From NCBI GenBank assembly GCA_025736915.1, contig CP107049.1, positions 3,596,001 through 3,660,000 of the forward strand: a stretch of 64,000 bases of DNA. Direction: 5' to 3'. This document shows, in pieces, positions 47,733 through 57,258 of this stretch. The notes beneath the pieces were generated by a model. That model ran no database searches. It was not told the origin of the DNA and saw only the letters and a program-made list of their open reading frames with translations. Every line of letters starts with the position of its first letter. The first letter of the stretch is position 1. The DNA comes from Acinetobacter nosocomialis (GTDB taxonomy: Bacteria > Pseudomonadota > Gammaproteobacteria > Pseudomonadales > Moraxellaceae). The translations under genes were made by a program, and so were the position numbers.

Positions 47733-47809
<77 letters not shown>

Positions 47810-47970: not shown

Positions 47971-49197
47971 ATGAGCACTTCACGAGTAAAGCTAACTAAG
48001 CCATTTATCGATCAACTTAAACTCATTCCAGCAATTTATCGCGACAGTGAGATTATTGGTTTTGCTATTCGTGTAAATAATTCCTATAAAACCTATATTG
48101 TGGAGAAGAAAGTAAAAGGTAGGTCAATACGTTGTAAATTAGGAGACTACGAAAACATTACTCTCGAAGAAGCACGTATACTTGCCGAGCAGAAGTTAAA
48201 AGATTTATCTGATACCAATCCTTCAACTATCAAAAATAATAAAATATTAAAAAATAATTTAGATAAGAAAAATTATCAGCCCGTCTTAAATGAAGCTTTC
48301 CAGACTTATATAAATCACCATAAGCTAAAAGAAAGGACATTAGTTGACTATAAAGAAGTCATAGAAAAATACTTAATAGACTGGGGGGAGCTTAAACTAA
48401 TTCATATTACTGAAAAGATGATTGAAGATAAGTATATCCAGTTAACAAAAAGTAGTTATGCAAAAGCGAATCTATCTATGCGGGTATTGAGAGCTGTTTA
48501 TTGTTTTTCGGTTAAGTATTATCAAAATAAAAATAAAGAAACAGTCATACCTATGATGAACCCAGTTACTTTTTTAAATTCGAAACAACTTTGGCAAGCG
48601 ATCCCACCTCGAAATAACTATATTGATAGAGAAAATTTAACAAAATGGGTCCATGCAGTTATTGAATATCAAGGTCGGGGCCAAGAAAATGAAACAAATA
48701 GGGACTTTTTATTAACACTTGTTTTAACAGGGCTTTTTAGAAATGAGTGTGAATGCTTACGTTGGGCGGATCTAGACTTGGACGAAGGAAGCCTTTCTTT
48801 TATAAATACTTATAATAATGAACTCTATAAACTTTATATGGGTGATTTCCTTTGGGATTTAATGAAAAAACGTAAAAGGCAAATTAGGGAAGAATGGGTG
48901 TTCCCATCTGTGAAGTCTAAAACTGGTCATATTGTTAATATTTCAAAATTCCGGAAAAAAATAGAAGAGCAGTGTAATATCTCTTTTACTTTTCAAGATT
49001 TACGTAGAACATTTAATTTTGTTGTAGATCACTTAAGTGATAAACCACTATTTATTAGAAAGGCAGATGAGAAAGAGAAAATACCAGAATCTAACAATGT
49101 GGTTCATGATATGCGTAATGGAATGAATAGGGTAGAACAAGTTGTTCTTGGCATATATAGAGATGAATTTATTAAATCTATCACTATCCATCTATAA
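47971..49197 (+). CDS. Tyrosine-type recombinase/integrase with degenerate active site
   Basis: A 408-residue protein with the layout of P4-type integrases: an N-terminal arm-binding domain (residues 1-80), a SAM-like core-binding domain (about 105-200) and a catalytic domain. ArgI is in TGLFRNE and ArgII in FQDLRRTF, but the usual His before LRR is Gln, the beta-hairpin Lys position reads TYNNELYK, no clear His/Trp box exists, and the best Tyr is in GIYRDEF. It may be decayed or divergent. No excision factor, cargo or duplicated attachment site is visible. Start supported by AGGGATT. Confidence 0.8.
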   Translation: MSTSRVKLTKPFIDQLKLIPAIYRDSEIIGFAIRVNNSYKTYIVEKKVKGRSIRCKLGDYENITLEEARILAEQKLKDLSDTNPSTIKNNKILKNNLDKKNYQPVLNEAFQTYINHHKLKERTLVDYKEVIEKYLIDWGELKLIHITEKMIEDKYIQLTKSSYAKANLSMRVLRAVYCFSVKYYQNKNKETVIPMMNPVTFLNSKQLWQAIPPRNNYIDRENLTKWVHAVIEYQGRGQENETNRDFLLTLVLTGLFRNECECLRWADLDLDEGSLSFINTYNNELYKLYMGDFLWDLMKKRKRQIREEWVFPSVKSKTGHIVNISKFRKKIEEQCNISFTFQDLRRTFNFVVDHLSDKPLFIRKADEKEKIPESNNVVHDMRNGMNRVEQVVLGIYRDEFIKSITIHL

Positions 49198-49660
49198 AAA
49201 TTTTGATTTTTCTAAACTAAAAATAAGAATACAGCCTCTTCTAAAATTAGTGTAAGTTTATAGTAAGTTTTGTCAGTAAAACACCGAATGATTATTCTTT
49301 CACACTTCCTACAACCATTTGTAATTGATGAATTTTATACTTGACTAAAACACTTGGAATTTATACAGTAGTGGAGTATTTTTGATAATTATTATTATTG
49401 CTTAGTCCTGAAATACAGTAAGAAGCCTATTCGCTATGAATAGGCTTTTTGCTTTGTTTTAATTGATAACTTAAGTCTAAATTTCTTAAAAATTAATCTA
49501 ATAAAATCAAATAAATAGTTTTTTAGGCGGTTTTAATAAATTGAAAAAAATTGACACGTAAATTTTCATTATGAACAAAACTGATTTAAATAGTAGTCAA
49601 AGTGAAACATACCTAAATGCTAAGTTTAATTTTCACTAAACGAGGCATAGGAGTGTCATC
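49198..49660. other. Region between the integrase and the small membrane peptide gene
   Basis: 463 bases without an annotated protein gene. It holds a promoter-terminator pair that could make an 80-base RNA (separate entry), and then AT-rich sequence with the small gene's ribosome-binding site. Confidence 0.45.
49376..49455 (+). ncRNA. Candidate small RNA with its own terminator
   Basis: TTGACT (49341-49346) and TACAGT (49364-49369) with 17-base spacing form a possible promoter. A perfect ten-pair hairpin, AAGCCTATTC / GAATAGGCTT (49423-49447), with a T-rich tail ends the unit. No open frame lies between. The hairpin is over 220 bases past the integrase stop, so it may instead be a distant terminator for that gene. 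Confidence 0.4.
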
Positions 49661-49756
49661 ATGTTAAAAGCAATGTTTTTCTTCAGTGCAGGTGCAATGT
49701 TTGGCTATTGTTATAAACATAAGAATGATAAAGCCGAAGCTGATAAATCTAAATAA
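49661..49756 (+). CDS. 31-residue small membrane protein
   Basis: ATG through TAA encodes 31 residues: MLKAMFFFSAGAMFGYCYKH, then a charged Lys/Asp/Glu tail ending in KSK. AGGAG lies about nine bases before the ATG, and a strong terminator starts six bases past the stop. The hydrophobic first 18 residues could span or sit in the inner membrane, with the charged tail in the cytoplasm. No homologous family is recalled. The ribosome-binding site, compact hydrophobic/charged design and own terminator argue for a real gene. Confidence 0.6.
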   Translation: MLKAMFFFSAGAMFGYCYKHKNDKAEADKSK

Positions 49757-49762
49757 GCACTG

Positions 49763-49787
49763 AAAAACCGCCTATATGGCGGTTTTT
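49763..49787. terminator. Terminator of the small membrane protein gene
   Basis: AAAAACCGCC / GGCGGTTTTT stem with a five-base loop. It overlaps the stop codon of the opposing LysR gene by two bases and may end both transcripts. Confidence 0.8.
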
Positions 49788-50685
49788 AATGAGCAGCATT
49801 AGATAAGTTTGCTTGAATAATTTGTACAAGCTCTCTTGCTGCTTTTGATAAGGGTTTATCTTGGAGCCAGATGAGATAGATAGATAGAGGTAAATGATTT
49901 TTTGTATTTTTAAAATCTAGTTGAACTAAATGTCCTTGCTCAATTTTTTCTTTTATTAAAGATAAAGGAAAATTTCCCCATCCCAAACCAGCCTCGACCA
50001 TATGAATGGCAGTTTGTAAACTGTTGGTTTTCCAATACATGGCCCCAACGATGGAACGTGAGTCCTGCATATTTAATTCACTACTTGCAACCACAATTTG
50101 CCGAACATTAATTAATTCTTCGATAGAGATTAACTTATTCTTTTGTTCTAAAAGTGGATGATGAGCAGAAATTGTGGCGACTAGAGTTTCATTCATCACC
50201 AATTGCAAACTTTCACGCATTTTTATATTGAGATCTGAACCTGCAAGGCAAAGACTAATATTTTCTGTATAGAGCAAATTTAGAATATCGTCTTGTGGAG
50301 CTGTAATAATCTCTATGTTAAGTAAGGGAAATTTGTCAGCCAGTTTCTTTATGGCTTTAAAAAGTAAATCGGTATTCGCATCTGAAACAACACCAATTTT
50401 TAGTTTACTTTCAAGCCCTAATGAAAGTTCATAGGCATGGGTGCCTAATAGCCTAAGTTGCTCAGCAATAATTCTTGCTTGAGGTTCTAATGCTAAAGCT
50501 GCCGAAGTAGGAATAACTTTACGGTGAGTACGTTCAAACAGGGGATAACCAAGTTCTGCCTCGATATTGGCAACAGCCATGCTCACTGCTGATGGTACTC
50601 GATTTAACTTACGCGCCGCTGCCGAAAAAGATCCTGTATCTAATACAGTTAAGAAAAGCTCTATATTTTCGCTATTAAAATTCAT
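49786..50685 (-). CDS. LysR-family transcriptional regulator
   Basis: A 299-residue regulator. The N-terminal winged helix-turn-helix is ENIELFLTVLDTGSFSAAARKL through VPSAVSMAVANIEAELGYPLFER (residues about 5-55); the remainder is the periplasmic-binding-protein-like effector domain. It is divergent from the PACE efflux gene by about 90 bases. In A. baumannii the PACE pump gene aceI is activated by a divergent LysR (AceR), so a like relation is probable here. Confidence 0.88.
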   Translation of the reverse strand: MNFNSENIELFLTVLDTGSFSAAARKLNRVPSAVSMAVANIEAELGYPLFERTHRKVIPTSAALALEPQARIIAEQLRLLGTHAYELSLGLESKLKIGVVSDANTDLLFKAIKKLADKFPLLNIEIITAPQDDILNLLYTENISLCLAGSDLNIKMRESLQLVMNETLVATISAHHPLLEQKNKLISIEELINVRQIVVASSELNMQDSRSIVGAMYWKTNSLQTAIHMVEAGLGWGNFPLSLIKEKIEQGHLVQLDFKNTKNHLPLSIYLIWLQDKPLSKAARELVQIIQANLSNAAH

Positions 50686-54544: not shown

Positions 54545-55396
54545 ATGATAGATTGGGAAAATTTACATTACTTTTCGGTTTTTTCTGAAGAAAAATCACT
54601 TTCAGCTGCGGCAAGAAAGTTAGGGGTTGACCATGCCACTGTTGCAAGAAGAATCGCTCAGTTAGAACAGAACTTAAAATTAAAATTAGTTGATCGTAGA
54701 CCTCGGACTTATGTTTTAACATCGGAAGGCGAGCGGCTTGCCCAAGTAGTGGCACGTATGATGGAAGAGACGTTTTCTATTGAGCGGCTTGCTCTAGCTG
54801 GACAGCAGGAAGTTACGGGGACTGTTTCTATTAGTATGCCTCCATTAACGGCTGCTCATCTAATCATGCCTCATCTCGGAAAGTTTTATCGTCATTATCC
54901 GCAATTAAAACTGCGTGTACTTGGAGATGTTCATTATGTATCTTTACAGCATAGAGAGGCTGATATTGCTGTAAGATTTGGGCGACCTAAAGATGAATAT
55001 TTAGTTGCTCGTAAAGTCGGAGAAATTCCTTTTGGAATATATGCTACCCCAAGTTATTTGGCTTCAACGAACCAAGAAAATTATGAGTGGATTAGTGTAG
55101 AGGTTGGCGGGGTACATGGACAGAAACAACAAAAATTAAAAGAGAAATTGAATAATAAAGACCCGCTCATGGTTACTAATCATCCTGAGTTGCAATGGAG
55201 AGCTGCATGTGGGGGAGTAGGTTTAGCTGTACTACCTGACTTTTTAGGTCAACAAGGCAATTTGATAAAATTACCCGATAATGATCCGATGAGCGCTGAA
55301 ATTTGGTTGGTCATACACGAAGATCTACGGAGTAGTCCTGTGGTAAGGGTAGTGATGGATTTTCTTTTAAATTGTTTTGAACCATTTAGAGTTTAA
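54545..55396 (+). CDS. LysR-family transcriptional regulator
   Basis: A 283-residue regulator. MIDWENLHYFSVFSEEKSLSAAARKLGVDHATVARRIAQLEQNL is the helix-turn-helix region (residues 1-45, key blocks given), followed by a substrate-binding-like domain. It is of the branch that often regulates divergent EamA exporters. ATG at 54545 is used; an in-frame GTG five codons earlier is less likely. Confidence 0.88.
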   Translation: MIDWENLHYFSVFSEEKSLSAAARKLGVDHATVARRIAQLEQNLKLKLVDRRPRTYVLTSEGERLAQVVARMMEETFSIERLALAGQQEVTGTVSISMPPLTAAHLIMPHLGKFYRHYPQLKLRVLGDVHYVSLQHREADIAVRFGRPKDEYLVARKVGEIPFGIYATPSYLASTNQENYEWISVEVGGVHGQKQQKLKEKLNNKDPLMVTNHPELQWRAACGGVGLAVLPDFLGQQGNLIKLPDNDPMSAEIWLVIHEDLRSSPVVRVVMDFLLNCFEPFRV

Positions 55397-55633: not shown

Positions 55634-55962
55634 GCGGTTTTATAGTAAAAACTTGAAGTTAGGTTGTAATTGAAGAATATTTCTAGATTTGTTTATGTTT
55701 TTTTTCTTATAGGTTGTGTAAAACTTTATAATTTATGAAGTTACATACTATGAAGGTTTGCTTTTATGTCAAACTATCTACATGAGAGATTTTTTAATTA
55801 TATTGCACATTAATCTCTATAAAATTCATATTTTCTTAATTAATAGAATGATAATTCTTTAGAAAGCCTGTAGAATAGGAAGTCTAAATTTTATTTTTAA
55901 TTAATTTTTGTTTAAAATTAACCGGTTAAATGGTTTTATCAAACTTTTGTTAAAAAAAAGAC

Positions 55963-55991
55963 TTGATATTTAAGCTAAATTTTGAAATTAT
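55963..55991 (+). promoter_or_regulatory. Promoter of the candidate small RNA
   Basis: TTGATA (55963-55968), 17 bases, AATTAT (55986-55991). Five of six and four of six matches to the sigma-70 boxes, at the right distance from the first hairpin. Confidence 0.4.
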
Positions 55992-55997
55992 AGTTAT

Positions 55998-56090
55998 GCA
56001 AATTGTGATCTATTTCCCACAATTTGTATTTCAGGTTAAGTGGTTATCACTAATGCTCATGAGCTTTATTCGCTTATGAGCATTTTTTTA
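55998..56090 (+). ncRNA. Candidate structured small RNA with strong terminator
   Basis: About 93 bases containing three hairpins in order: CAAATTGTG / CACAATTTG; a short AGTG-N5-CACT; and a 13-pair terminator whose outer arms are AATGCTCAT (56052-56060) and ATGAGCATT (56076-56084), followed by seven T residues. The T-run is on the plus strand only. No coding gene lies upstream for 600 bases on this strand. This is the classic layout of an Hfq-type trans-acting sRNA. Its ends are estimates. Confidence 0.55.
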
Positions 56091-56238
56091 GCTTATTTAT
56101 TAGTAAAATTTAAAAAATAATTCATGTTAAAAATTAATTTTTTTAGTATTAATTAAAAATTATTCCTATAATTTTTTCATTCAATATATCTAACTATGTT
56201 CTGTTCAGAGTCAGTACTTAGAATGTACCAAAACTATT

Positions 56239-57258
56239 CTAATCATATTGAATCGTGACTGTGGCATTAGCTTTGACTTCTCCAGCGGTGACATTGGCAG
56301 CAGTCTGGTAGTAACGCGCAGTTAAGGGGACATCATATTGAACCGTTTGGTTAGAGCCTACAGTACCAATCCCTAGTTTATTTCCTTTTTGAATCGTGTT
56401 GTTTGCACCATTCATATTCCATAGAAGCTCTACACCAACGCCGTTCGCTTTAGTCGATTCAGCAGCGCTGTTGTTAATAACCTGACTGTTTGCAGTGTCA
56501 GAATTATAGTCAAAGCTTAAACTCAATGTATTACTTGTAGGTACACCCGAGTTATTCTCGCCACCATTACACAGAATGGATAGGTTAAAGTTTTTCTCAC
56601 CTTGAGTTGATCCGATAGCTCTAAAGCCTGATTTTGTCACAGTAGGAAGTTCAACAACCGTATCTACGCCATTTTGGATTTCACAAGATGAGGATGCAAT
56701 GAGAATAGGTGCACTTCCTAATACTGTGGTTGTTAAGAACGGACGATTCTGTTGACCTGTTACATAGTAAGTACTATAACGACCAGCCACCAATGCTCCA
56801 GAGCCTGTAGTGGCAGCAGTTTTAATTACTTCCAAGACAATATAACCTGGAGAAAGTGTGTATGTTGTGTGAGGCGTCAATGTAAGTTTATAAGGGTAAT
56901 AGCCAGAAGCGTTTGAAGAGTCTGTTACTTCACGGTAAATTCGTATGCCTATACCCGGAATATTTGTAGCATAAACATTATTACCTATAGGACTAATTGG
57001 ATAATTTAGAGGTAGAGCCGCTGTAATTTGGTCACCGGGGCGGTTACACGTTGCAGTAGAATTATTGGGTGAAATGGTAAAAGTATTCTTTTGTAGAACT
57101 GTCCCGATTGGATCGGTCGGACGAACTACAATAGTACCAATCGTTATTGGAATATCCACTGTGGTAAAACCTTTACTTAAAGTACAGTTTGCATAGGCTT
57201 GGTTATAAATAAAGAAACTCGTGATTAGTAAGCCACTCTGTATAAGCATTTTTTTCAT
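56239..57258 (-). CDS. Chaperone-usher pilus tip adhesin (two-domain)
   Basis: A 339-residue exported protein with signal peptide ending QAYA-NCTLS. Four cysteines (NC-TL, TATCNR, SSSCEI, ILCNGG) allow one disulfide in each of two domains: an N-terminal receptor-binding part (about 24-195) and a C-terminal pilin domain ending in the beta-zipper strand VKANATVTIQYD. That is the FimH-type plan. The receptor is unknown. Its ATG overlaps the usher stop (ATGA), and it is last in the operon. Confidence 0.82.
   Translation of the reverse strand: MKKMLIQSGLLITSFFIYNQAYANCTLSKGFTTVDIPITIGTIVVRPTDPIGTVLQKNTFTISPNNSTATCNRPGDQITAALPLNYPISPIGNNVYATNIPGIGIRIYREVTDSSNASGYYPYKLTLTPHTTYTLSPGYIVLEVIKTAATTGSGALVAGRYSTYYVTGQQNRPFLTTTVLGSAPILIASSSCEIQNGVDTVVELPTVTKSGFRAIGSTQGEKNFNLSILCNGGENNSGVPTSNTLSLSFDYNSDTANSQVINNSAAESTKANGVGVELLWNMNGANNTIQKGNKLGIGTVGSNQTVQYDVPLTARYYQTAANVTAGEVKANATVTIQYD

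Follow-up and report, generated by a model that had tools for sequence, protein, structure and literature searches.

A small RNA beside a chaperone-usher pilus operon of Acinetobacter nosocomialis: a predicted family of sibling RNAs and their candidate antisense partners

Genomic context and structure of the small RNA

The window analysed here is a 64,000-nucleotide stretch of Acinetobacter nosocomialis contig CP107049.1. It contains an intergenic element, hereafter sibling A, located next to a chaperone-usher pilus operon that encodes a MrkD-like adhesin, an usher, a PapD chaperone and FimA. The adhesin gene (56239 to 57258, minus strand; Pfam MrkDrd, 8e-40) is convergent with A and adjoins it in all 16 A-bearing genomes, so the position of A is not random. 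A LysR gene occurs within the examined flank in 7 of these 16 genomes. It is also the nearest upstream plus-strand gene in the window, ending at 55396, 602 bases before position 55998, which agrees with the original prediction that no gene on this strand would be found within 600 bases.

Sibling A is preceded by a sigma70-type promoter on the plus strand (55963 to 55991) with a TG before the -10 element; its hexamers, TTGATA (55963 to 55968) and AATTAT (55986 to 55991), are separated by a 17 nt spacer as first proposed, and all 16 aligned genomes show the TTGAT-N-AATTAT layout. The predicted RNA (55998 to 56090, plus strand, 85 to 93 nt) begins with a 5' hairpin at 55999 to 56026, formed by the arms CAAATTGTG (55999 to 56007) and CACAATTTG (56018 to 56026), which was recognised by folding and by a homologous stem with changes on both sides in related RNAs. 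This is followed by an unpaired linker containing the core AUUUCAGG (56028 to 56035), the proposed pairing seed, a mini-hairpin at 56039 to 56051 with arms AGTG (56039 to 56042) and CACT (56048 to 56051), and an intrinsic terminator of 13 pairs followed by a T run (56052 to 56084), identified by both folding and a terminator scan. All three stems had been anticipated and were recovered in place, as was a run of seven T residues on one strand only: the terminator is on the plus strand only, and the seven T follow GCA, two of them lying within the stem.

The region 55998 to 56090 has a minimum free energy of -31.1 kcal/mol (z -7.24), and none of 200 shuffles folded as low. Promoter-like sites between 54500 and 57500 number 8 versus 10.3 expected from shuffles, a count no higher than chance, and terminator-like sites in the same interval number 1 versus 1.8. 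Mean pairwise identity across the 16 genomes is 0.98 for the RNA (55998 to 56084), 0.88 for the promoter, 0.69 for the upstream flank (55760 to 55940) and 0.40 for the downstream flank (56095 to 56230); conservation of the A element exceeds chance. A 171-bp stretch spanning the small RNA is ~97% identical to A. baumannii records versus ~86.5% for 19 kb of the window. Sibling A is an intergenic, structured RNA with its own promoter, an intrinsic terminator and no open frame, and is a real trans-encoded small RNA of 85 to 93 nt; the independent transcription suggested at the outset is supported by the conserved promoter, the terminator and the covarying stems described below. At the Rfam gathering score only tRNA and AbsR25 were matched in the 64-kb window, neither of them at A. 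Upstream of the A promoter, a block at 55816 to 55875 is as conserved as the promoter itself (0.81 to 0.97 identity in the 16 genomes) and includes the palindrome AGAATGATAATTCT, a possible operator or start of another transcript.

A family of sibling RNAs

The full 171-bp A element is present in 16 of 175 Acinetobacter genomes, with partial matches over the hairpin and linker elsewhere. A model built from seven type-B copies (R1) recovered A, B and D in the own genome of the window, and E weakly. The models built afterwards, R2 and then the broader R3, each found siblings in 21 of the 175 genomes at E<=0.01, R3 giving 4 to 8 members in each of the 16 A-bearing genomes, three in G045, and one each in G008, G038, G092 and G140. 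The lack of A in G045 was ascribed to an assembly gap, as the adhesin contig stops one base past the gene, and the single member in G140 (L059) is doubtful. Types A, B, D and E recur across the 16 genomes, while C, F, G, H and further types have a patchy distribution. Sibling B is convergent with xseB and occurs in G015 as two identical copies (L043 and L060) ~20 kb apart; sibling C is, in our reading of the matches, located at the 3' end of a reading frame. Sibling A itself, which matches the models, is by its predicted structure one member of a small RNA family characterised by a 5' hairpin, an unpaired linker with AUUUCAGG, a mini-hairpin and a terminator.

The shared structure was evaluated in two alignments, A5 (19 rows) and A6 (43 members, 41 distinct rows). 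Standard pairs make up 92.9% in A5, with 18 of 27 pairs changing on both sides, and 93.3% of pair cells in A6, with 26 of 27 pairs doing so, counts that lean towards the model because both alignments were fitted to it. The covariation score of A6 is 0.529 versus 0.205 when shuffled (reached in 0 of 500) and at most 0.136 when partners are slid; likewise, no shuffle of 500 reaches the A5 score and sliding the partners destroys it. The mini-hairpin is constant in A5; in A6 it varies, for example from AGTG/CACT to AGCG/CGCT, and there 98.1% of its cells are paired and all four pairs change on both sides among the 41 distinct rows. Covariation had been put forward as a check in the original prediction, and the hairpin and terminator stems do change with compensation among relatives and siblings. 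The invariant, unpaired core is kept by 37 to 43 of the 43 aligned members per column (A 42, U 42, U 43, U 42, C 37, A 43, G 43, G 41). Sibling A lacks one linker base, and for this reason the pattern TATTTCAGGNNTAAGTGG... matched B and not A in the own genome.

Candidate sponge RNAs

The complement of the seed, CCTGAAATAC, lies in the loops of two intergenic hairpins that immediately precede terminators, at 49407 to 49416 of the window and at G000:C1:73618. We refer to the corresponding candidate sponge RNAs, both chromosomal, as anti1 and anti2. In the window, anti1 has a promoter of the form TTGACT-17-TACAGT (49341 to 49369, plus strand) followed by a putative RNA with approximate ends at 49375 and 49456. 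Its loop CTTAGTCCTGAAATA (49401 to 49415) is complementary to the linker of the siblings and is followed by a terminator recognisable from its sequence (49417 to 49453). Both anti1 and anti2 have their own promoter-like TTGACT, the element CTTGACTAAAA, which is common to anti1 and to anti2 in other genomes, and a terminator whose stem varies. The loop consensus, CUUARUCCUGAAAUA, varies only at R among 24 distinct anti sequences.

At 0 to 1 mismatch, the 20-mer CTTARTCCTGAAATACAGTA has matches in exactly the 16 genomes with full-length A out of 175 searched. Each A-bearing genome has two anti loci (32 in total), one of which, anti1 of G065, carries two mismatches. Allowing up to two mismatches extends the matches to 21 of 175 genomes, the additional five having one 2-mismatch match each, which in G045 is the reverse of sibling B. 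With the pattern reversed as a control, 5 matches were obtained in all 175 genomes. An exact search for the 20-mer across 84,980 species genomes returned 15 stretches, 14 of them titled Acinetobacter, a list that is incomplete because A. baumannii carries the anti loop yet is missing from it. By this search anti1 and anti2 are both present in the laboratory type strain A. calcoaceticus DSM 30006. The fifteenth stretch, on a contig titled Bacillota MAG, was taken as mis-binned, being 96% identical to Acinetobacter DNA over 1.9 kb.

In the window, anti1 lies on the same strand as A and ~6.6 kb from it; the two are 6.5 to 9.7 kb apart in the 14 genomes with both on one contig. In all 16 genomes, anti2 immediately follows sibling D on the same strand. 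A second adhesin gene is located 9.7 to 17.8 kb from D in 14 of 16 genomes, the other two having it on separate contigs or lacking it. The arrangements A/anti1/pilus and D/anti2/pilus look like an old duplicated segment. A leader or attenuator reading of anti1 was rejected, as no small gene follows it in some genomes (L143, L144).

Other features were noted around these loci. Just upstream of anti1, an integrase-like gene (47971 to 49197) beside a tRNA (47736 to 47809) marks an integration site of mobile DNA, its integrase domain scoring slightly below the Pfam cut-off. The Rfam AbsR25 'sRNA' match (49646 to 49789) holds a frame of 31 amino acids (49661 to 49756) with AGGAG upstream, together with a terminator. 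This frame may be a gene for a small membrane protein; it has no Pfam match, and in several genomes anti2 is likewise followed by a small frame of this kind. At G000:C1:3770394, CCTGAAATAC immediately precedes a terminator that follows a 409-aa frame, and may mark a third RNA carrying the anti sequence, located in a 3' UTR.

Predicted pairing between siblings and anti RNAs

The single variable base of the anti1 loop is matched by sibling B in all 16 genomes, as C with G in 11 and T with A in 5, although this may represent only one or two events as the five T/A genomes fall in two lineages of the B tree with an ambiguous mutual branching order. The corresponding base of anti2 matches B in 7 of 16 genomes only. 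Of the 15 nt of the anti loop, all are complementary to B in 6 of 16 genomes, and 14 are in the other 10; A would pair with the anti loops via a bulge.

As duplexes of whole RNAs mix long loops, plain duplex folding was replaced by an accessibility-corrected score. Plain duplexes were not clearly better than shuffles for D-anti1 (172 of 300 as low), D-anti2 (80 of 300) and B-anti2 (20 of 300). Corrected energies were lowest for B-anti1 (-14.1 kcal/mol) and E-anti2 (-13.4), intermediate for A-anti2 (-9.9) and A-anti1 (-8.0), and weak for D with the two anti RNAs (-5.7 and -6.1); B-anti1 of A. baumannii gave -13.9. In 60 shuffles of each anti RNA, run for A and for A. baumannii B, the numbers as low were 2 (A-anti1), 0 (A-anti2), 0 (A. 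baumannii B-anti1) and 0. Complementarity to the anti RNAs extends over 8 to 16 nt in all sibling types, and is strong for B and E, moderate for A and weak for D. The A-anti1 energy ranks behind that of A with three of the 57 gene start regions in the window (-11.1, -9.1 and -8.8), so support for a sponge interpretation comes more from B and the family than from A.

In the own genome CCTGAAATAC occurs 23 times versus 17 for the reversed control, so there is no clear enrichment of the seed complement. Three of the 23 sites are siblings A, D and E, two are the anti RNAs and one is that before the terminator after the 409-aa frame; the rest overlap open frames. A target search with the pattern CCTGAAATN{0,25}ATG was dropped, its excess over the control (155 versus 39) being ascribed to Pro-Glu-Ile/Met codons.

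Relation to catalogued RNAs and comparable systems

An RNA-seq catalogue of A. baumannii AB5075 describes ABUWs041 (85 nt; 2,299,341-2,299,425) and ABUWs048 (187 nt; 2,684,695-2,684,881) as art38 and art45 of Group 5, both on the minus strand, 385 kb apart, and having 13 identical residues with an accessible UUUC (PMC5320573). In the A. baumannii-like genome G006 (98.8% over 3.2 kb), siblings A and B share exactly the 13 nt TTTGTATTTCAGG and differ on both sides of it, with UUUC unpaired as in Group 5. A and B are on one strand, 355 to 432 kb apart, in G000, G006, G060 and two A. baumannii records, compared with ~908 kb apart in NZ_CP064203 and opposite strands in G150. Size and the 13-nt match fit, position and strand appear to, and we infer from these features that A is probably ABUWs041/art38 and B its Group 5 companion. 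The original description of the RNA as unannotated therefore stands for the DNA records examined but very probably not for this catalogue. ABUWs037 (396 nt) is on the same strand, 257 kb from ABUWs041 (PMC5320573), and as a guess may comprise D plus anti2, since A and D are 254 to 314 kb apart in the genomes and records checked.

As portrayed in the accessible portion of that study, Group 5 resembles the siblings in its 85-nt RNA with three hairpins, accessible UUUC, 13 identical residues and shared strand, but that portion names two members only and gives no antisense partner, mobile copies or mechanism (Weiss et al.; PMC5320573). The C4-like Group 1 and antisense Group 2 RNAs of A. baumannii are similarly a set of multi-copy small RNAs with antisense small RNAs in the same genome; however, they are 79 to 425 nt long, have a phage C4 origin and other coordinates, and Group 2 overlaps Group 1 sequence (PMC5320573). 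Aar of A. baumannii is also a ~100-nt trans-acting small RNA with a conserved seed, but has a different locus and a different seed, CTCC (PMC11472050, PMC12802169). There is a parallel in organisation with Qrr1-4 and QrrX of Vibrio cholerae, in which several siblings have one conserved pairing stretch and a separate RNA carries its complement, and QrrX has been found by experiment to destabilise Qrr (PMC9732341). The Acinetobacter system differs in having two partners and phage siblings, and its sponge function is a prediction from sequence; we saw no sequence relationship between the two. We found no description of the wider sibling family or of the anti RNAs in the open-access literature, and none of the matches listed in a literature search on the seed letters concerned Acinetobacter. 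The new part is therefore probably the predicted sibling family, its antisense partners and its phage-borne copies, A itself probably having been catalogued.

Proposed mechanism and alternatives

The family and its complementary loops suggest a network of RNAs restrained by sponge RNAs. We propose, with a probability of roughly 65%, that the siblings are trans-acting small RNAs controlled by anti1 and anti2 through a Qrr/QrrX-like mechanism, a reading that draws on the way the RNA is built, on its conserved sequence and covarying stems, on the family, on complementary loops that occur together with A and on the matched change between B and anti1. The sibling linker would serve as the pairing region, and anti1 and anti2 would display CUUARUCCUGAAAUA in a hairpin loop and bind it, thereby titrating or destabilising the siblings. 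This presumes that siblings and anti RNAs are made together and form duplexes in vivo, that such duplexes render the siblings inactive, and that mRNAs are the other sibling targets. The accessible part of the AB5075 catalogue has no entry at the place expected for anti1 (Weiss et al.; PMC5320573).

Base pairing is symmetric, and the roles could be reversed, with anti1 and anti2 as core regulators of mRNAs with UAUUUCAGG-like sites and the siblings, including phage-borne ones, as titrating decoys. The anti loops are indeed the most constant part, whereas siblings multiply, vary and move with phages; however, B, A, D and E likewise belong to the core of the clade, and G008, G038, G092 and G140 have siblings without anti RNAs, two of these being of the mobile type, which makes such a reversal unlikely. 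Still less probable is that AUUUCAGG is a binding site for a protein (an RNA chaperone or a CsrA-like protein) masked by the anti loops. A short, invariant motif that lies unpaired between two stems, as seen in the 43 aligned members, would fit such a site, but the complementary loops and matched change point to base pairing, and a GGA after CA is absent in A and most types, leaving this reading with very little weight.

Control of the pilus, raised in the original prediction, would make A a local regulator of the adjoining operon, either through antisense overlap with the 3' end of the operon or through pairing with the pilin leader. Its constant position next to the convergent adhesin gene, and the second adhesin gene in the vicinity of D, favour such a role, as does a site in the major pilin leader that precedes the likely ATG by ~55 to 70 nt, has hardly changed in A. 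baumannii and ranks 3 among the 57 start regions (-8.8 kcal/mol). The other three pilus genes, however, rank 32, 35 and 49, and siblings B, E, F and G are away from pili as far as seen. Adhesin orthologues (77 to 100% identity) are limited to 17 genomes, namely the 16 with A and G045, where the contig ends, but homologues are present in 65 of 175 genomes, including 48 that lack A and reach no more than 62% identity, and the shared neighbours may simply reflect one old segment duplication. The predicted link to the pilus consequently holds for position but is weak for base pairing, and we consider local regulation improbable, though less so than a protein-binding site.

Were the sponge reading correct, a bacterial group that includes the hospital pathogen A. 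baumannii would possess a family of sibling small RNAs that all use the same sequence for pairing, a pair of dedicated antisense RNAs conserved base by base, and versions of this regulator carried by phages, and a catalogued RNA without an assigned function would be placed in a network. The seed, its binding site and the matched base change are directly testable in existing RIL-seq and RNA-seq data.

Mobile copies

Type G siblings occur in at least 120 viral contig stretches, with 26 distinct variants among the matches listed, and in 110 records of a plasmid collection, all of them Acinetobacter and 102 with >=80% cover, some of these records being chromosome-sized. The pattern TATTTCAGGNNTAAGTGG... 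and the type-F pattern had no matches in the viral contigs, and anti patterns in four viral contigs were dismissed as host flank beside an integrase gene rather than phage. A profile search of one viral contig identified a terminase large subunit encoded ~2.5 kb downstream of type G, and two other type G contigs appear by translation to have the same arrangement; in the two plasmid records examined, type G is near a large integrase gene. Tentatively, and with considerable doubt, we suggest that type G, positioned upstream of the packaging genes, may plug prophages into the host seed-and-sponge network. Upon induction or infection it would soak up anti RNAs or take over sibling mRNA targets, so freeing or mimicking the host siblings, and host anti RNAs would in turn also restrain the phage regulator. 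In phages Ab105-3phi and Ab1656-2, the match to type G is confined to its terminator side (35% of the query), and the stretch after the type G terminator in L193 and L164 is common to both phages while the small RNA part is not, as if the latter were an exchangeable cassette.
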